A DNA stretch of 48,906 bases from an uncultured Kiritimatiellota bacterium (GTDB taxonomy: Bacteria > Verrucomicrobiota > Kiritimatiellia > RFP12 > DVOR01): contig CALXSH010000009.1 of assembly GCA_944391065.1 (NCBI GenBank), forward strand, positions 1 through 48,906, given 5' to 3'. The translations under genes were made by a program, and so were the position numbers. Below, in pieces: positions 39,574 through 48,906 of the stretch (position 1 is the stretch's first letter; each line of letters begins with the position of its first letter). The notes below the pieces were generated by a model. That model was not told the origin of the DNA. It saw only the letters and a list, made by a program, of their open reading frames with translations, and searched no databases.

Positions 39574-41703
39574 TTACTTGCCGGCTTCTGGCCCTGTGGC
39601 CGGTTTAGACACGAAGTCGTTTAACCATGCCTCCAACTTCTCGGAGTCATTTCGAACGCTCTCTGGAACATTCTCCTCCTTTCCCCACTCGTTTTGCCCC
39701 ACCTTCAGTTGGATACCGTTTTCCAGGAGGGCAACCTCGTACTTGTCGTCATACTTGGCGTAAACCCATGACCCGGAGTCAAGCGTTACCCAATCAGTGG
39801 ACACGAGCTTCTCCAGCTTGTACCACCACGAAACCGCGGCGTCGATTCGGTAGGAGGAACGGATATTCTTCGTGGTGTAGAGGTAGACGCCATTGCCATA
39901 GGTGCGTACACTGTGGTCTTGCCAGTTCTGTTTCGCCACCTCCAGGTTCTGAAGCCAAAAGGACAACAGCTTGGTGTTCTCCTGCATGTCTATCGCGGCC
40001 TTGGTCTGGGCATCATTCCAATAAAGGAACGCTTTCAGGCTGTCATTGTCCTTGACCATGTAACATGGGATCCAGACGGAGTCGCATTTTGCGGCCTCGA
40101 CGTTCTTAATGACCTGACAAAGCCAGGTTTTGCGTTCTTCCGAGTCGAGGGTGCCGAAGGTCTTCTCGAAGCCCTCTCGCGTTTTATCCAATTGGCACGG
40201 GGACTTGTCGTTCCCCAGCCGTTCCAACAGGAACGTGATCCGGCCCTTCTGCCACGGCAACTTCTCCGCCGTCTCGATGGGGTCACGCCAGTCCTTGTTC
40301 TCGGCGATGAGGGAGAGCTTGGTGGCCTCTTCTTCGCACTGTTCCTGTGCGAAGGTGGCTTCCTCCGTGGCTTCCTCCGTGGCTTTCTTCGTGGCTTTCT
40401 TCGTGGCTTTCTTCAGTGCCTGTTGAAGGTCGCCCTCGGACAGTTTCCTGAAGGCCCGAACCGCGCGGACGAAGGTCTCCGCGCTGTCGATGGTCGCATT
40501 CTCGACGATGTTGTGGATGACGCGCTTCCAGTCGTCGTGTTCTTCTGGTTTGATGTCTGGTTTGATCAGATACGCATAGAGCAGGGCGAGGTCGGAATAG
40601 GTGAGGTTTTTGCGTTGCGCCAGCTTATCGGCGATCGGGAAAGGTTTCTTCTCTTCTTCGTCCCATGGGGCGGTCATCCAGTTGATGGCGCCTTCGGTGT
40701 CGGTCACACGCGTGAAGCCGTCGACCAGGAACTGTTTCCACGTGCCGTCATCACAGAGCCATTTGCGTTCGTCGTTGGGGAGCGTTGCCTGTTTGGTGAT
40801 GACGTTGAAGATGGTCTGCGCATGGGCGGCCAACGCTTTCTCGTTTTCTTCTTTGCCGGTCACGACTTGGTGCGCCAGAAGCAGGGCGAGGGTCACCGAA
40901 AGGAGCGCCGTGTCGCAAGGGACGGCGGGGTTGGTGTCGCCCGTGTACAGAGCCCAAATCGCGTCCAGCCACTCGGCGTCGATTTTGTTTGCCCAGTCCG
41001 GTACCTTCTTCCCATCGATGTAGGCCTTGAGGTTCTCGAAGGGCGTGAGGGGCTTGCCGCGGGCATTCAGCTTGCGGTAAGTCTCGTCGGGGTTGTCGTT
41101 TGAAGTCTTGAAACGCAAAAGGGTGACGGACTTTCTTTCCCACCAGTTGTCTGTGTCTGGCAAGACCTGTCCTTTGCAGGCCTCGTGGATGGCATCCAAC
41201 ATCCGCAACATTCCCATGACGGTGGGATCATGCTCCCAAGCGGCGAGGAACCAGGGTTGGTCGCGGATGGCTTCCTGCGGTGTCTGACCGTTTTGGGTGG
41301 CCTCGCGCCACGCCTTGCGAGAGCTCACAAGCGCCTTGCAAAACGCCATCGCGCTTTCGCGGACCTCATAGACAAAGCGGTCCAGTCGCTCCTTGACCTC
41401 TTCGGAGAGAGGCAGGTGATAGAGATGGAAGAGGAAGAGCGTGGTGAGGCGTTGCTGCCCATCCACGGGAATCATTTCCTTATCCTTATTAGAGACGAGA
41501 TAAACAAAGTCCAGACAGAGGGGCTTGGCTTTCCGGAAGGCGGTGTCCAACTCTGTGGCGAAGGCTGTTCGGATGTCCTTCGCCTGGGTCGTGGTGCGTC
41601 CTTGCGCATAGTCGCGCTGGATGTCGGGGATGACGATGCGCACGGCGCTATTGAGCATTTCCCAGAATGTGGTCGGCTCCAGGGAATTCGTGTCCTCCGC
41701 CAT
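39574..41703 (-). CDS. DUF262 protein, second of a pair
   Basis: 709 residues. The N-terminal DUF262 (ParB-like/GmrS-type) domain shows IPDIQRDYAQGR (near residue 25) and MIPVDGQQRLTTLFLF (near residue 97) with the conserved DGQQR. A helical body follows (RKLNARGKPLTPFENLKAY is also conserved in the family). Residues about 430-450 are a KKAT/EEAT repeat. The end (last 120 residues) is a mixed domain I do not recognise. No HNH motif is seen. DUF262 proteins are known in GmrSD-type nucleases and related phage-defence genes. Its ATG overlaps the stop of the upstream DUF262 gene (TAATG), so the two are made together and probably act together. Confidence 0.85.
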   Translation of the reverse strand: MAEDTNSLEPTTFWEMLNSAVRIVIPDIQRDYAQGRTTTQAKDIRTAFATELDTAFRKAKPLCLDFVYLVSNKDKEMIPVDGQQRLTTLFLFHLYHLPLSEEVKERLDRFVYEVRESAMAFCKALVSSRKAWREATQNGQTPQEAIRDQPWFLAAWEHDPTVMGMLRMLDAIHEACKGQVLPDTDNWWERKSVTLLRFKTSNDNPDETYRKLNARGKPLTPFENLKAYIDGKKVPDWANKIDAEWLDAIWALYTGDTNPAVPCDTALLSVTLALLLAHQVVTGKEENEKALAAHAQTIFNVITKQATLPNDERKWLCDDGTWKQFLVDGFTRVTDTEGAINWMTAPWDEEEKKPFPIADKLAQRKNLTYSDLALLYAYLIKPDIKPEEHDDWKRVIHNIVENATIDSAETFVRAVRAFRKLSEGDLQQALKKATKKATKKATEEATEEATFAQEQCEEEATKLSLIAENKDWRDPIETAEKLPWQKGRITFLLERLGNDKSPCQLDKTREGFEKTFGTLDSEERKTWLCQVIKNVEAAKCDSVWIPCYMVKDNDSLKAFLYWNDAQTKAAIDMQENTKLLSFWLQNLEVAKQNWQDHSVRTYGNGVYLYTTKNIRSSYRIDAAVSWWYKLEKLVSTDWVTLDSGSWVYAKYDDKYEVALLENGIQLKVGQNEWGKEENVPESVRNDSEKLEAWLNDFVSKPATGPEAGK
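40355..40414. repeat. Five 12-bp tandem repeats inside the DUF262 gene
   Basis: GTGGCTTCCTCC occurs twice and then GTGGCTTTCTTC three times, encoding (KKAT)3(EEAT)2 on the minus strand. Each unit is four codons, so slippage changes length without breaking the frame. Confidence 0.9.
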
Positions 41704-43268
41704 TACTTGGTCTCCTTCAGATAGTTTTTCAAGGTGTCAATCACGAATTGGGTGTACAGTTCCTGGTCTTTGGTGTCCCAAGTGTCTCCGCTTTCTTTCC
41801 CGACCAGCCGACAGAAGACCATGTGCGTCCCGAAGGGGATGAATGCGCAGTCTTCCTTCTTTGTGGGGTCGGCCCATTCGCGGAGCCACTCGCGTTTGGC
41901 GGGGAAGGTGTCATTGTTGAATCGCGCGTTGGTCTCGTGCGGGAGGAGCGCCATGTTGCCGAAGGCGTGCAGGTCGGCGTGCAGGTCGATTTTGCCGTCC
42001 TGTTTGAGCTCCTTGCCCCCCTCTTCCTGCTGTGCGTGGATATGCTCCAACGTCCATTTGGTGTTCCTGTAGGTGCCAAAGGGGAAACGCGTGCGCTCAA
42101 GCCCCGCGTGCTCCGTCATGGCCAGATTGAAGGCGAGCAAGATGGCCTCGATTTGCCTTCGGGCCTTCCAGTCCCCGTCATAGCGTGGCAAGTCCATCTC
42201 GTCAAACGATTTTTTGTCGCCCAAAAGTAAGGAGCGGCATTCTGCCGAGACTTGCCGGTCAAACTCCGAGCGTGGCTCTTTTTTCGCAACCTCCAAGAGT
42301 GTGACAAGCCTCTGGAAGCGCACCTCGGGATTCTCCTTGCGTTGGCCCATCAGGAACCCGAGCAGATGGTAGAGGCGCTGGTCGGCATACCACATGTCCA
42401 ACCGGTTGAAGATTGCCGTGATGGCTTCCCAAAAAGACTCCCAATCCTTATCCTCACTGATTTGCTTCCTGGCCTTCTCGTAAATCGCGAAGGGGTCTTT
42501 TTCCAAATCCGCCTTGGTGGAGGTGTTGGGCTGGCCACGGTACCACAGTTCAAAGAGGAAATCGATGCGCGTGGCCTCGAAGCGGGTGGCTTGCGGCTCG
42601 GGGTTGACGAAACACCAGAAGTCGTCATCTTGCAGACGTTGTTCCATGCGATCCCATGCGTTGGCGTAACGGTCGCGTTCGCGGGTGTCCGTGATGGCAG
42701 ACAACAACTCCGCCTTGATGAGCTCGGCGTTGGAGAGCGGGATTTTGCCGGAGTTCAGGCGCGCGAAGACTTCGTATTCTTTGTGTTCTTCGTGTTCGTC
42801 TGCGTCTTTCGGTACCTCGTACCACAGGAAGAAGGCGGAGTTGAGATAGTCCGACAACTGCGTTTTCTTGTCGCTCGGAATAGTCTTTTCCAACTCTTCT
42901 TTGGCTTGATTAATGAAGAATCTGTCCGGCTTCGATGGCGAGATATCCGAGGGTTTCTGCACGTCCTTGTGGCGTTCGTAGCGCAACTGCCATTTGTGGT
43001 CTTTCTTCAAGACGTCGAGCAGGAGCCAGAGGGTCGTCAGGCGTTGCTGGCCGTCGATGACGCGCCAAACCTTCTCCTCCGCGCTCTGACACACGACGAG
43101 CGGCTGGAGGCAGTAGGGCTTTTTCGCTTCGGCGGCCTCCAGAAGGTCTTCGGCAAGCTGGCGTACCTGGACTTCGCCCCACCGGTAGCCGCGCTGGTAG
43201 GAGGGAATGAAGAAGGTCAGGCCGGAAAGGGCCGCAACGGTTTTCGTCTCTAAGGTGTTGTCTGACAT
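41703..43268 (-). CDS. DUF262-DUF1524 protein, GmrSD-like, first of a pair
   Basis: 521 residues. The N-terminal DUF262 domain has FIPSYQRGYRWGEVQVRQL (near residue 20) and WRVIDGQQRLTTLWLLLD (near residue 69), plus FARLNSGKIPLSNAELIKAEL. The C-terminal third looks like a DUF1524 HNH-type nuclease: WTLEHIHAQ (the His-Ile-x-x-Gln pattern), FGNMALLPHETNARFNN and FPAKREWL. This is the architecture of GmrSD-type modification-dependent nucleases. The frame opens further upstream, but ATG 43268 is chosen because AAAGGA is 7 bp away and a -10 fits. It is coupled to a second DUF262 gene. A role in phage or plasmid defence is inferred from the family. Confidence 0.85.
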   Translation of the reverse strand: MSDNTLETKTVAALSGLTFFIPSYQRGYRWGEVQVRQLAEDLLEAAEAKKPYCLQPLVVCQSAEEKVWRVIDGQQRLTTLWLLLDVLKKDHKWQLRYERHKDVQKPSDISPSKPDRFFINQAKEELEKTIPSDKKTQLSDYLNSAFFLWYEVPKDADEHEEHKEYEVFARLNSGKIPLSNAELIKAELLSAITDTRERDRYANAWDRMEQRLQDDDFWCFVNPEPQATRFEATRIDFLFELWYRGQPNTSTKADLEKDPFAIYEKARKQISEDKDWESFWEAITAIFNRLDMWYADQRLYHLLGFLMGQRKENPEVRFQRLVTLLEVAKKEPRSEFDRQVSAECRSLLLGDKKSFDEMDLPRYDGDWKARRQIEAILLAFNLAMTEHAGLERTRFPFGTYRNTKWTLEHIHAQQEEGGKELKQDGKIDLHADLHAFGNMALLPHETNARFNNDTFPAKREWLREWADPTKKEDCAFIPFGTHMVFCRLVGKESGDTWDTKDQELYTQFVIDTLKNYLKETK

Positions 43269-43288
43269 ACGCAATCCTTTCACAGAGC

Positions 43289-43297
43289 AATTTATCA
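43289..43297 (-). promoter_or_regulatory. Extended -10 promoter of the DUF262 pair
   Basis: Minus-strand TGATAAATT, with an expected start near 43282 and a leader of about 14 nt containing AAAGGA. Confidence 0.5.
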
Positions 43298-43501
43298 AAC
43301 GGGAGGGGGCAGTCAATGAAGAGGTTGGGAGGTGTCGTGTATATTTCAAAACCGTCACTCGCCATCCGAGGTGAGCCTACGGCCTAAGCGCGTAGGCGCA
43401 CTTAAACCTTCCGAATGAGGGGGTGCATTTAGTCTTGCAAGAGTGGGAGCGCATTTTCTCTTGCAAGGGGGCGGATTATTGGAGATAAGGTTGATGGAGG
43501 C

Positions 43502-44148: not shown

Positions 44149-44532
44149 TTAGTCCACAACTCGCGACCCCTTTTTCACAACAATACTTAAATCGTTTAAA
44201 TTGAGTTCGTAAATCCAGCCTCTTTGGTTGATCACAGTGAGTATATCTCCCGACAGTGTAAACTGTGTTATAGGACAAGCTTGAACACATTTGCTCAAGC
44301 CTTTTTGGGTTTCATATACAACCACATATATCTGACAAGTCCACTCAATTTTTCCAGTGACTACATTTCTCTTTACGATATAACCACTTTCTCCCCTTTT
44401 TACCTCATATATAAAACCGTCGCAAATTATGGGAATCGGCTTTTTTACAGGAGGTACTTTCGCATAACTATCCATTGCTACTATGCTAGCTATTATAAAG
44501 CATACTACCATTTTCATAAATGCTCCTTTCAT
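44149..44532 (-). CDS. Small exported protein, candidate immunity to the HExxH RHS toxin
   Basis: 127 residues, low GC, not recognised. A signal peptide covers about residues 6-24 (MKMVVCFIIASIVAMDSYA). The mature part is mostly beta with three cysteines. It starts 9 bp after the stop of the RHS-toxin gene, where immunity genes normally sit; that is the only ground for the role. The start is odd: GGAGCATTTATGAAA is duplicated in tandem (minus strand 44541-44527 and 44526-44512), giving two complete ribosome-binding-site/ATG sets (44532 and 44517) in the same frame. Confidence 0.65.
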   Translation of the reverse strand: MKGAFMKMVVCFIIASIVAMDSYAKVPPVKKPIPIICDGFIYEVKRGESGYIVKRNVVTGKIEWTCQIYVVVYETQKGLSKCVQACPITQFTLSGDILTVINQRGWIYELNLNDLSIVVKKGSRVVD

Positions 44533-44541
44533 AAATGCTCC

Positions 44542-46119
44542 TCATCCACACTGGCTCCCTAGACCACAATCTTTTTCCACATCGTAAGTTTCGCCACTTC
44601 CGTCATCATCATCTATATCTGGCTTGCATTCATGAAATAATTCATGGAGAATTGTCTCCGCAAGACATAAGTATCCCCATCTACATGTACGTGGGCAGAG
44701 ATAAATCTTCCACTTCCCATCAGTATCATACGTATAACCATAGTATGCGCTTTCAAGACAGTAATCACTTTCATTGTCAATAACAATTTCTAAGTTAGTT
44801 AATCGAGATACAGCATTACCCTTACAATATGTCGAAGAATCAAAACGACATTTGCATTTACTCGAGCTATCGAGTTGCTTTTTGGCTACAGTTATCGCAC
44901 GCTGTATGCGCCTTTGACACTCTGTCATTTCATCTTTTGATAATGGTGACACATACAGACCTAACCTATCGATTGAATTCGCTACATATGAGTACGTGTT
45001 CTGAGATGCAAATAATGTATCCGTTGAATTCACAATCGTTTTCACTCTAAACTCAATATTGCCAAGAGGATCCCGCGAAATCCACCTACCGTCTAATGCA
45101 TTATAATGCCTGAAGTTATAATACATCAACGCCAAGGCACTATCTGCGAACTCGGCAGAGAAACTCCACGGATTTTTCGCAATAGAAAGGTCGCACTGTA
45201 CAGTAGTTATACCAAATGGAGAGTATCCATAGTTTGCTACAACATCGCCATTCGTGGCTATAATCTCACTCACATTCTTATGTCCGTCATATAAATAATA
45301 TCTAACAACGTCATTGCACAACCACAAAAGCGGTCGTGTTATTACAGATTCCGTAGGATCCCAGACGTAGGAGTGGAAGAGGGCGTTATCGGCGCCACGG
45401 AGTTGCTGGATGCAGAGGTAGTTGTCATAGACGAAGCGTTGAAGCGTTTCTGCGCCATCCTTCACCGTGCGCATTTCGACACGGCGACCCATGCGGTCGA
45501 AGGCCATGGTGATCACGGTGTCGCCGGATTGCCAGCGGATGGGGCGGTTTTCGGCGTTATAGGAGACTGACCAAATGCCGGTTTCGGTCTTGACAAGGGT
45601 TTGGTTGCCGTCGGCATCATACTCTGGGACAAAGTCGTCTATCGCGGTGTATTGGTTGAGATTGTTGGCGGTGTAGGTCTTGCCCTCGGCGGTCGTACGG
45701 TTTCCGATGTCGTCGTAGGCATAGGAAACTTCGTCTGCCGCGATTAATTCATCGCGAGCGTTGTAGCCGTACTGCTCGTCGCTCTTTGAGGTGCGGCGGC
45801 CGAGGAGGTCGTTGGTGTAGACGTAAGTGGAGTAGGTGGCGTTGGTGACGGCGGTGAGAAGGTCGCGGTGGGGTTCGTAACTCCATGTGACCACGGCCTC
45901 ATTGGGATAGGTCAATTGAGATTTGAGGTTGGAACCTGCGAGGTAGTCCCAGCGGAACCCGTCGGATTCGGCGATGCGGCCCGTGGCGGAGTCATAGGTG
46001 ATGGATTGTTTGCGGTCGCCATCCACGGAGTAACCCACATTGCGACCGAAGGTGTCCCAATGGCAAGTGAGGGCCTTGGAATCCTGTGATTTCGTTTGTC
46101 GCTCGATCCTCTGGCTCAT
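44542..46119 (-). CDS. Truncated RHS protein with C-terminal HExxH metallopeptidase-like domain
   Basis: 525 residues. Residues about 15-355 are YD/RHS repeats (GRNVGYSVDG, FVYDNYLC, YVWDPTESVITRPL, YDGHKNVSEI, YGYSPFG) ending in the conserved junction YNALDGRWISRDPLGN. The variable C-terminus (about 355-525) is rich in Cys and ends with LAETILHELFHE, an HExxH zinc-peptidase pattern (residues 492-496), then an Asp-rich tail. Architecture is that of a polymorphic RHS toxin, except that the large N-terminal part and any secretion domain are missing. It has its own extended -10 and AAAGAGG site, so the short form is expressed as such. Toxic activity is inferred. Confidence 0.75.
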   Translation of the reverse strand: MSQRIERQTKSQDSKALTCHWDTFGRNVGYSVDGDRKQSITYDSATGRIAESDGFRWDYLAGSNLKSQLTYPNEAVVTWSYEPHRDLLTAVTNATYSTYVYTNDLLGRRTSKSDEQYGYNARDELIAADEVSYAYDDIGNRTTAEGKTYTANNLNQYTAIDDFVPEYDADGNQTLVKTETGIWSVSYNAENRPIRWQSGDTVITMAFDRMGRRVEMRTVKDGAETLQRFVYDNYLCIQQLRGADNALFHSYVWDPTESVITRPLLWLCNDVVRYYLYDGHKNVSEIIATNGDVVANYGYSPFGITTVQCDLSIAKNPWSFSAEFADSALALMYYNFRHYNALDGRWISRDPLGNIEFRVKTIVNSTDTLFASQNTYSYVANSIDRLGLYVSPLSKDEMTECQRRIQRAITVAKKQLDSSSKCKCRFDSSTYCKGNAVSRLTNLEIVIDNESDYCLESAYYGYTYDTDGKWKIYLCPRTCRWGYLCLAETILHELFHECKPDIDDDDGSGETYDVEKDCGLGSQCG

Positions 46120-46295: not shown

Positions 46296-46727
46296 TTATC
46301 CGTCACTCCCACCTCCTATAAACCACGATTGCTTCGCTAGCACTCGATTGCAGCAACTACAGACAATCTCAGCATTTTTTGTACGTTCCTTGGTAATACA
46401 CGTATTAATTGTAGAGAGTGTTTCGCGTTTACAATAATAGCAAGTCCCTATTATTTTGATTTTTTTGAAATAAGTATAGTCTTTCGTAAATTTCCTCCAT
46501 TTTAAACAAAAAAATATCGCAATAATAACGTGAAACAACAAGAAGAGAAGGCGAGACATCCCCATGGGAATCGATTCTACGTAAAAACCAATAAGTCCGA
46601 ATGAACCAACTGAAAGGATGGCATACCCTCCCCCAATACCCAGTTGAAATGCAAAATCAATAAAAATGACATACGCTAAAACTTTTTCATAATCTTGTCG
46701 TTGAACGCAACGGAATATACGCTTCAT
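46296..46727 (-). CDS. Small membrane protein with zinc-ribbon-like end, candidate immunity protein
   Basis: 143 residues, low GC, not recognised. Two membrane helices (about residues 18-48 and 56-80) are followed by a basic loop and CYYC ... CSCC spaced about 25 residues apart, a zinc-ribbon pattern. AAGGA lies 7 bp before ATG 46727, inside the end of an RHS scrap. The frame is continuous with that scrap, so a 263-residue fusion starting at GTG 47087 is also possible. By position it resembles an orphan immunity gene whose toxin has been lost. Confidence 0.6.
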   Translation of the reverse strand: MKRIFRCVQRQDYEKVLAYVIFIDFAFQLGIGGGYAILSVGSFGLIGFYVESIPMGMSRLLFLLFHVIIAIFFCLKWRKFTKDYTYFKKIKIIGTCYYCKRETLSTINTCITKERTKNAEIVCSCCNRVLAKQSWFIGGGSDG

Positions 46728-47087
46728 GCTTTCATCCTTATGAAACCAAGTGGTGGTGCCGACGGCATCGGTGGCGGAGGTTTGGCGCCCCATGGCGTCG
46801 TAGGTGTAGGCAATGTCGGGCGTGGTGTCGGCGTAGTCCACGGAGAGGAGTTGGCCCCAGTCATCGTAAGTATAAGAGGTGGCGATGCTGCGGGCATTGG
46901 TGCGGGTGGCCAATTTGCCGTCGTCGGTGTAGGCGTAGGTCAGGCCCTTGCCGTCGGCGTAGGTCTTGGCGAGGAGGACGCCCGAGGCCTCGTCGTAGGC
47001 CCAGGTGGTGGTGTCGCCGATGCCGGAGGCCTCGTTGCGACAGGTCGTCATGGAAGTGCGGTTGCCGAAGGCGTCGTAGGCGTTCAC
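46728..47087 (-). pseudogene. RHS/YD-repeat scrap
   Basis: About 120 residues of high-GC YD repeats (MNAYDAFGNRTSM, WAYDEASGVLLAKTYADG, YTYDDWGQLLSVDYAD, YTYDAMGRQTSATDAVG) starting abruptly at GTG 47087, 21 bp after the preceding lipoprotein gene, and running in frame into the low-GC membrane protein. Neither a full RHS core nor the DPLG junction is present. It is the kind of fragment left when new toxin-immunity pairs recombine into an RHS locus. Confidence 0.75.
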
Positions 47088-47108: not shown

Positions 47109-47639
47109 TTACTCATTTCTATCATCACAATGGGGCCACACCTTTTCAACAAAATCAATTTCCTTTAATCGAGAATCACACTCTTTCTTATCGAACCGTT
47201 GTGAATAAAATCGGAATCTCGGAAAATAAGAGAGGTTGGGATTAAGGCGATGATAGAAACACATCAAAATGAACAATCGTTCCTCTGATGACTCGGAACG
47301 CCACCACTCCAACTGCAAAAAGTCATAACATTCATATTCTGCAAGGAGAAGAATGGATTCCACGCACGTTTCATCGTACATCCCATACGTTAATCTCCAT
47401 TTCGATAAGGATAACGCATCATTGTTTAGCGTTGTGGAATCAGAGGACTGCCCCATGTCTCTAAGACATTGAAGATAGGTCTTATACACCTCGTGTGCCT
47501 TTTGCTCTGAATAGCACAGCTCTGGATAACAGTGTTCCGGATAATAAAGCCTTGAGGTCGCACCATTCACTTGCTTGCGTGCACACCCCACAAGCATTAT
47601 AACCATGATAAGTACACAGTAAAAAGGGAACTTCCACAT
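47109..47639 (-). CDS. Lipoprotein, candidate immunity to the caspase-like RHS toxin
   Basis: 176 residues, low GC, not recognised. A signal with lipobox MLVGC places the lipidated Cys near residue 19. The mature part is helical and rich in Tyr, Cys and Trp. It starts 11 bp after the RHS stop, with a GAGGTG site overlapping that stop, the usual place for an immunity gene. A membrane-anchored immunity protein would fit a toxin acting in the periplasm. Function is inferred from position only. Confidence 0.65.
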   Translation of the reverse strand: MWKFPFYCVLIMVIMLVGCARKQVNGATSRLYYPEHCYPELCYSEQKAHEVYKTYLQCLRDMGQSSDSTTLNNDALSLSKWRLTYGMYDETCVESILLLAEYECYDFLQLEWWRSESSEERLFILMCFYHRLNPNLSYFPRFRFYSQRFDKKECDSRLKEIDFVEKVWPHCDDRNE

Positions 47640-47650
47640 CTCAATTCACC

Positions 47651-48906
47651 TCAATTAAATCGTGGTTTATATGCGGGCCCAAGCGAAGAGGGGGGAATAT
47701 CATGGTTAGGATAGGAAAGCGAAAGCCCTGAATTGGGCACCTCCTTTCGCTCCATCCAACTTCCTGCCCCACTCAGCCACGTGTTGTTTTGGGGATCCGA
47801 ATGGCATGCCCCACGTGCAGCAATAACGCCACAGCCTGTAACTTTTGCCAACTTATTCGTAAAATCATCAGAGATACGACATGCATAAATCTGAATTCTG
47901 CAATCTTCACAAAACCGGATTGTACCATTTTGAATTTCTGCCCCAAGTTCTGACAACGTGGCGGAACTAGGGTCTCGTTTATTCAAATACAATCCGGAGC
48001 TTCCTGCATCTGCACCCGGAATACCATCCCCCTGTGGCGAAGAAGACCCATTATAAGCCCAGCCATGCCCTGCGAAAGTTAAATTACGGATACAACATTC
48101 GTCCGACGACAATGTCTGTTCTTTCAGAATGTCCAATATCTCTTTTCCCGTCTTCGCCTTAGACACGCTGGTTTTGCCATCGTTGCTTGCTATGTTACGA
48201 AAATGAGTGTTTTCATTTCCCGTGCCATTTGGGATAAAGATCCCAAGCGACACAGGCTCGCGTCCAAGACAATCGATTTTATTTATCGAATTGTCAGAAA
48301 ATAAGAAGAGAGCCTTTGTTTCAAGAGTATCTCGAGCCAGCCATCTTCCCGTCACAGAATGGTAGTGACGATAATTGTAGTAGACGAGGCCGAGGGTAGA
48401 GTCGTGGACCTCGGAGGAGAAACGGAAGGGGTTTTCGGAGAGGAGGTCGCGATTGGTAACGCGGGTGGCGCGGGCGGTGCGGGTGACGGCGCCGAAGGGG
48501 GCGTAGTCGTAGTGGGCGGCGATGCCGTTCTGGAGGGCGTGGTAGAATACCTCGGAGACGTTCTTGTTGCCGTCGTGGGTGTAGAAGAGGTTGAGGCCCC
48601 AGTTCTTGGCGCGCATGACGAGCGGGCGCGTGGCGATGGGTTCCGTGGGGTCCCAGACAAACTCGGAGCGGACGGCGTTGCCGTTGTCGGCATTCAGCCG
48701 TTGGATGCAGAGGTAGTTGTCGTAAACGAAGCGGAAGTGCGTGGCAACCTGCCCGGCGCGCGTCTCTTGATACTCCACGCGGCGGCCCATGCGGTCGAAA
48801 GCCATGGTGATTACGGTGTCTCCCTGCGTCCAACGAATGGGGCGATTTTCGGCATTGTAGGTGACAGACCAAATGCCGGTCTCGGTCTTGATGAGGGTCT
48901 GATTTC
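47651..48906 (-). CDS. RHS protein (5' end beyond window) with caspase/DUF4347-like C-terminal domain
   Basis: The frame is open to the window edge, so the start is not seen; at least 418 residues. High-GC RHS core (RFVYDNYLC, FVWDPTEPIATRP, YYNYRHYHSVTGRW) ends at LARDTLETKALF, a degenerate form of the DPLG junction. After that, GC falls and the sequence becomes unrelated: LTFAGHGWAYNG, then IQIYACRIS, TGCGVIAARGACH. The His after a strand (GHGW) and the Cys after a later strand (YAC) match the His-Cys dyad layout of caspase-like (clan CD) and DUF4347 domains. I infer a protease-type toxin end. The fold is a suggestion, not proven. Confidence 0.65.
   Translation of the reverse strand, partial: NQTLIKTETGIWSVTYNAENRPIRWTQGDTVITMAFDRMGRRVEYQETRAGQVATHFRFVYDNYLCIQRLNADNGNAVRSEFVWDPTEPIATRPLVMRAKNWGLNLFYTHDGNKNVSEVFYHALQNGIAAHYDYAPFGAVTRTARATRVTNRDLLSENPFRFSSEVHDSTLGLVYYNYRHYHSVTGRWLARDTLETKALFLFSDNSINKIDCLGREPVSLGIFIPNGTGNENTHFRNIASNDGKTSVSKAKTGKEILDILKEQTLSSDECCIRNLTFAGHGWAYNGSSSPQGDGIPGADAGSSGLYLNKRDPSSATLSELGAEIQNGTIRFCEDCRIQIYACRISDDFTNKLAKVTGCGVIAARGACHSDPQNNTWLSGAGSWMERKEVPNSGLSLSYPNHDIPPSSLGPAYKPRFN
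48476..48826 (-). repeat. Right arm of 351-bp RHS inverted repeat
   Basis: Inverted copy of 117-467 without gaps, about 90% identical by eye; 48591-48686 is identical to the reverse complement of 257-352. Confidence 0.85.

Follow-up and report, generated by a model that had tools for sequence, protein, structure and literature searches.

A divergent DUF4347-like tip and its lipoprotein-like neighbour as a predicted toxin and immunity cassette at the end of an RHS protein from an uncultured Kiritimatiellota bacterium

Background

The RHS protein encoded at one end of a contig from an uncultured Kiritimatiellota bacterium finishes in a tip of about 204 residues, for which the original prediction proposed a likeness to caspase-like or DUF4347 peptidases. 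The locus raises the question of whether this likeness is real and, if so, whether the RHS end is a toxin accompanied by an antidote of its own. DUF4347 (PF14252) is catalogued among the domains of unknown function and has few mentions in the literature searched. Throughout this work, "the window" denotes the whole stretch of DNA that was analyzed, 48,906 bases in length.

Several published proteins provide a context for the analysis. Tce1 of P. aeruginosa (PA0256, PDB 9QPE) is a cargo of Hcp3 that has been likened to the cysteine protease domain of TcdB; in the relevant passages of that paper His186 and Cys240 form a putative dyad, and the authors term the activity itself putative (PMC13323088). 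According to the same passages, neither Tce1 nor the related Tce2 markedly affects the growth of E. coli, Tce1 is not toxic in yeast either, the toxicity of Tce2 in yeast is alleviated by mutation of its Cys residue, and no obvious immunity gene is found near Tce1, which is possibly anti-eukaryotic (PMC13323088). In an earlier report, in the part concerned, PA0256 appears among putative antibacterial effectors and is assigned a DUF4347 domain (PMC8262886). Finally, a passage of Zhang et al. 2012 predicts a C-terminal Tox-Caspase domain in polymorphic toxins, including those with RHS repeats (PMC3482391). The initial remark that such an end is uncommon on an RHS protein was hence only partly right. 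Among the titles and beginnings of abstracts searched, none describes an RHS tip of the DUF4347 type that is accompanied by an immunity gene.

Results

The RHS core and its junction with the tip

The window comprises the entire contig C9 of a draft genome (1.96 Mb in 79 contigs, 93.9% complete). Because the contig stops there, the start of the RHS reading frame is missing and its 5' end is open (Table 1). The visible part matches the RHS-associated core TIGR03696 with 46.1 bits, above the cut-off of that family, and the core is followed by a variable tip, which is the layout of RHS polymorphic toxins. VipB, the sole T6SS family searched, has no match in this genome (at its 93.9% completeness), and by eye no PAAR domain is apparent in another RHS protein that it encodes, a 2307-aa frame on contig C41.

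Table 1. Features of the RHS protein end and the genes adjoining it; positions refer to the window.
Feature	Position	Strand	Basis or remark
C-terminal part of RHS protein, 417 aa visible	47651..48904	-	ORF list, TIGR03696 match, contig end
Core/tip junction RDTLE...IDCLG, altered	48272..48331	-	sequence reading; motif as given in part of PMC8765631
Asp192, expected site of the RHS aspartyl autoprotease pair	48329-48331	-	
Asp211, expected site of the RHS aspartyl autoprotease pair	48272-48274	-	
Predicted toxin tip, DUF4347-like, putative cysteine peptidase domain of the caspase type (clan CD)	47654..48265	-	Pfam, profile comparison, relatives
His280 of GHGW, predicted catalytic His	48065..48067	-	conserved in three tips
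Cys342 of IYACRI, after a strand, predicted catalytic Cys	47879..47881	-	conserved in three tips
Further Cys residues kept in three tips	47831..48097	-	CC 48092-48097, FCxxC 47900-47911, TGC 47831-47833
Cys367 of RGACH, probably not catalytic	47804..47806	-	kept in G359, absent from G495
Predicted immunity protein, 176 aa, lipoprotein-like, with LVGC at the end of its N-terminal signal	47109..47639	-	ATG 11 bases after the toxin stop
ORF opening with RHS core remnant (displaced-tip layout)	46296..47087	-	downstream of the immunity gene; ORF list, Pfam, TIGR03696 search

The junction between the core and the tip had been described as altered, and it is indeed non-canonical. As in the autoprotease cores of RhsA and the Tc toxins, the TIGR03696 core is accompanied by both aspartates; in contrast to RhsA, the prolines of RDP and DPxG are lost and the spacing of the aspartates is 19 rather than 22, judging from the section of the RhsA study that also reports that cleavage of its tip requires Asp1324 and Asp1346 (PMC8765631). 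By analogy, Asp192 and Asp211 may release the tip of the window protein despite the missing prolines. Eight RHS core ends are present in this genome; seven were read with the motif pattern, three of them as RDP and four as RDR, REP, RDT or RDL, while the eighth reads GCDP. As altered junctions are frequent among these core ends, we do not regard the one in the window as special evidence.

Motifs of the tip and their conservation

Two relatives of the tip allow the putative catalytic positions to be narrowed down. One terminates another RHS protein (RHS core 79.5 bits) in G359, a genome from the same phylum and a different class, and is 41% identical to the window tip over residues 16-168. Their alignment has a single shared His column (that of GHGW) and seven shared Cys columns, and every Cys of either tip falls in one of these. 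The other, from G495, a member of the same order as the window genome, is 21% identical and retains the His (HIHSHS), the Cys following a strand (LFGC), and the CC, FCxxC and TDC motifs; the Cys of GAC is replaced (GSA).

The GHG, strand-YAC and GACH motifs noted at the outset are therefore real, and their conservation in G359 argues against chance. The separation of "about 80" residues between His and Cys was roughly correct, as it amounts to 62 residues to YAC and 87 to GAC. Since the His of GHGW and the Cys of YAC are kept in all three tips, His280 and Cys342 are the candidates for the dyad, and we predict from this conservation that they are catalytic. In the suggested His-Cys layout the Cys of YAC is thus the likely partner, and that of GACH is probably not catalytic because G495 lacks it. 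The CC, FCxxC and TGC cysteines possibly form disulfides or a metal site.

Relationship to DUF4347 and to peptidases of the caspase type

In Pfam, the window tip matches DUF4347 with E 0.031 (14.5 bits) and the G359 tip with E 0.015 (15.5 bits), both below the gathering cut-off of 24.6 bits; up to E = 1, no other family was found for either tip searched singly. A more sensitive comparison was made with a profile of 25 DUF4347 domains of the phylum, taken from the fetched loci of a search that matched 53 of 387 genomes. Against this profile hhalign scored 86.7% for the alignment of two tips and 92.0% for that of three. With four DUF4347-like toxin tips added to the profile the values rose to 91.7% and 96.3% (E 2e-9), respectively. 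These four were hand-picked: of the eight weak or short matches to DUF4347 that were fetched, L093 and L095 were left out for lacking an HG or Cys motif, L096 because it is no tip, and L097 as truncated. Individually, the four match the tip pair poorly (0.2-5.5%). In none of the shuffled comparisons did any of the 200 column shuffles reach the real score (the top single shuffle attained 33.4%), and the reversed alignment scored 0.2%.

The match extends from the strand before the His through the strand after the Cys helix, and it places GHGW on the SHG and YAC on the YGC of DUF4347. Among the members of the profile, Y-x-C is present in 25 of 25 and the His in at least 90%, the exceptions being L056 and L058. 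Of the further Cys residues, the five that all three tips keep are not a conserved feature of DUF4347. Comparison with 17 Peptidase C14 domains yielded only 20.6% for two tips and 11.7% for three; these matches are weak, yet each lies above all 200 shuffles. Like Peptidase C14 and CHAT, the tip has a GHG motif and, behind a strand, a Cys; the profile comparison covered C14, as only 3 CHAT loci came up.

The solved member of the group provides a link to structure. Searched by sequence against the PDB, the window tip alone found no relative, and both tips together gave two chance-level matches only (E 0.84 and 1.5). The DUF4347 profile, on the other hand, retrieved 9QPE_G, a DUF4347 domain-containing protein, with E 5.9e-5, outranked by four de novo TIM barrels that score through repeated short matches. 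In this chain, the His and Cys in register are residues 77 and 131 by our count, which correspond to His186 and Cys240 if the chain begins at residue 110. AlphaFold2 models built from single sequences (pLDDT 45.9 with pTM 0.51, and pLDDT 36.3 with pTM 0.35) are too poor to judge whether the His and the Cys face each other. For the first of these low-confidence models, no Foldseek match reached E <= 0.001, and the VIA matches, with Z 6.7 at best, were all to generic alpha/beta folds. One VIA row, 7wld_K of the GPI transamidase complex (Z 4.3), is presumably a clan CD protease chain; it is indistinguishable from the other rows and was given no weight. In summary, the caspase-like or DUF4347 character originally proposed for the C-terminus is supported at the level of sequence, with the putative catalytic His and Cys in register.

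Distribution of DUF4347-like tips

Five distinct RHS tips of the DUF4347-like kind were found in the phylum: the one shared by the window and G016, and those of G359, G495, G165 and G033. A search of 240 genomes of the class with both tips matched three (G000, G016 and G495, the last with E 9.8e-8); the RHS core and tip in the G495 reading frame were recognized by eye. The G165 and G033 tips come from the fetched DUF4347 matches. In G165, DUF4347 scores 28.9 bits, above the cut-off of 24.6, and the RHS core 27.9 bits, below its cut-off of 32.5; in G033, DUF4347 scores 18.0 bits, below the cut-off, and the RHS core 60.8 bits. The subfamily of the window tip is rare, being present in 3 of 387 and 3 of 240 genomes in two overlapping draws. 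A count of 193 of 387 genomes was discarded, as the query alignment still held the RHS core and the bulk of the hits were core matches; weak tip matches in G306, G229 and G087 were dropped as likely chance, their ORF lists showing no recognizable RHS tip.

DUF4347-like tips also terminate proteins of other kinds, namely an eCIS-core protein of G277 (L092:1013-1756; DUF4347 34.6 bits, above the cut-off) and a MuF-like protein of G084 (L090:649-1386; DUF4347 23.1 and MuF 23.9 bits, both below the cut-offs). Searches of plasmids, phages and viral contigs yielded no relative, and that of genome contigs returned only the contig of G016. PHROGs and PADLOC gave nothing for the tip or the immunity protein.

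The neighboring gene

The gene directly adjoining the tip in the window, G016 and G359 encodes a protein with features expected of an immunity partner. In the window its N-terminal signal ends with LVGC, which we take to be a lipoprotein-type signal motif. The secreted-looking neighbor of the G359 tip is its homolog (BLASTP 37.0 bits, hhalign 85.7%; mature parts alone 36.6 bits versus at most 23.5 in 300 shuffles), and no homology was detected with the neighbors of the G165 and G495 tips. In G008 and G011 the gene is intact and the toxin is reduced to its last codons. The window and G011 copies differ at 14 synonymous and 13 non-synonymous sites, i.e. a dN/dS of 0.21, which covers the whole divergence, including the time before the toxin was lost. 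The gene behaves as an immunity gene because a homolog follows a distant tip and because it is kept after the loss of the toxin; from these comparisons it probably encodes the immunity protein of the toxin.

The exported appearance of the protein is a less specific argument. Thirty RHS tips were listed, two of them without a downstream ORF (the G165 and G033 tips, missed by the pattern, are outside this count), and in 22 of the remaining 28, the window and G359 included, the neighbor has a strongly hydrophobic N-terminus (at least 2.4 on a crude scale). Because this property is shared so widely, we rejected it as special evidence.

Mobility of the cassette

The window and G016 demonstrate that the tip and the immunity gene move together as a cassette. 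G016 belongs to the same genus, and its copy is nearly identical at the DNA level, the tip (204 residues) and the immunity protein each differing by one residue from those of the window, while the region before the tip bears no relation to the window sequence. The GC content is 0.475 in the tip and 0.414 in the immunity gene versus 0.598 in the RHS core.

In G016, upstream of the cassette, a filamentous-phage-like block (L009:1-3974) ends near the border of core and tip; it encodes an M13 protein I/Zot-like protein, a resolvase and a G2P-like replication protein, the last below its cut-off.

The orphan immunity genes of G011 (L112:5175-9659) and G008 (L113:9054-10192) stand behind a duplicated leader and the first ~22 codons of a pyrH-like gene (assigned as pyrH by eye); this duplicated start is fused with what remains of the toxin, and an intact copy lies nearby. 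The pyrH-like 5' part occurs a third time, where it continues in frame into an RHS core (L114, L115). Flanked by the orphan immunity gene on one side and the intact pyrH-like gene on the other, L112:6233-7681 encodes an RHS protein whose tip is rich in Cys (CCLAHDDCY) and presumably phospholipase A2-like.

In the window, the RHS remnant listed last in Table 1 lies between two tips and breaks into ~145 unrelated membrane-like residues; the RHS core reappears in an ORF at 46119. The stretch 44149-46119 holds the second tip, with the sequence HELFHE, which we assume to be a zinc-peptidase-like motif; for this tip, Pfam gives no family beyond E 0.059. The tip has its own neighbor gene (44149-44532) with a hydrophobic N-terminus, and the window contains two protease-like RHS tips in tandem. 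Farther away, two adjoining genes (39574-43358) match GmrSD-type defense families: GmrSD_N scores 117.2 bits in 41703-43358, and PADLOC reports HEC-06/Orf5 in both genes, more weakly in 39574-41703.

Discussion

We propose that an interchangeable toxin cassette forms the end of the RHS protein, and we consider it likely, with fair confidence, that this cassette comprises a peptidase tip of the DUF4347 group, with His280 and Cys342 as the dyad, and its cognate lipoprotein immunity protein. The tip would be a divergent cysteine peptidase of the caspase fold (clan CD). It would be held in the RHS shell and freed by self-cleavage near Asp211; once secreted (the route, like the toxicity itself, we infer), it would cleave a protein of a rival bacterium, most likely one of its envelope or secreted proteins. 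The 176-aa lipoprotein would act as the cognate immunity protein. Its signal suggests that the tip is neutralized at the envelope, which is where we place this step because the protein looks exported.

It is conceivable that the domain has the DUF4347 fold without peptidase function, serving as a binding or structural module or representing an inactivated copy. This is unlikely, though not negligible: the activity of DUF4347 is putative, two of the 25 profile domains lack the His, and Tce1 is harmless in E. coli and yeast in the published passages, but the His and the YAC Cys are kept in all three tips of the subfamily and the Cys mutation that alleviates the toxicity of the related Tce2 in yeast, as reported there, speaks for a catalytic role (PMC13323088). 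We find it improbable that the caspase-like domain is an autopeptidase that only processes the RHS protein rather than a toxin. A passage of Zhang et al. 2012 counts in favor of such a role (PMC3482391), but autopeptidase domains are usually found upstream of another toxin domain, whereas the window tip is the last domain, and the immunity-like gene behind it outlives the toxin.

A Cys-rich metal-binding toxin, e.g. a nuclease or a zinc enzyme, whose likeness to DUF4347 would be superficial, has the smallest chance of the three. The CC, the CxxC and one further Cys, conserved in all three tips and not in DUF4347, speak for it; against it stands a profile match that exceeds all shuffles and takes in the strand ahead of the His, the Cys helix and the strand behind that helix. 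We therefore retain the peptidase toxin with its immunity partner as the preferred interpretation.

With DUF4347, Tce1 included, the window tip shares the layout of strand-His-Gly followed by strand-Tyr-x-Cys. Its His and Cys are farther apart, at 62 residues compared with 39 in the first row of the DUF4347 alignment and 54 in Tce1, and the window tip differs further in falling below the Pfam cut-off, in its extra conserved cysteines, in its RHS core and in its immunity-like neighbor. The Tox-Caspase domain, as described in the passage of Zhang et al. 2012, is likewise caspase-like, C-terminal and linked to RHS repeats, with a conserved H and C; this likeness is one of description, not of alignment, and the list of phyla in that passage does not include Lentisphaerae or Verrucomicrobia (PMC3482391). 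The immunity families named there are Imm36 and Imm57 (PMC3482391), whereas the neighbor in the window matches no Pfam family at E <= 1. The window tip is a new, divergent version of the caspase-like RHS toxin tips that had been foreseen.

Conclusions

A broader speculation, about which we have more doubt than confidence, is that DUF4347 constitutes a class of payload delivered by RHS, eCIS-core and MuF-like chassis, and that the RHS versions are antibacterial peptidases acting in the envelope and matched by exported immunity proteins. Action in the envelope would explain why Tce1 is harmless when expressed in E. coli. The combination of a DUF4347-type tip with an antidote-like neighbor, which the solved member Tce1 does not have, offers a toxin/antidote test for the group, and the cassette in the window suggests that the envelope should be considered, as well as the cytoplasm, as the place of the target.
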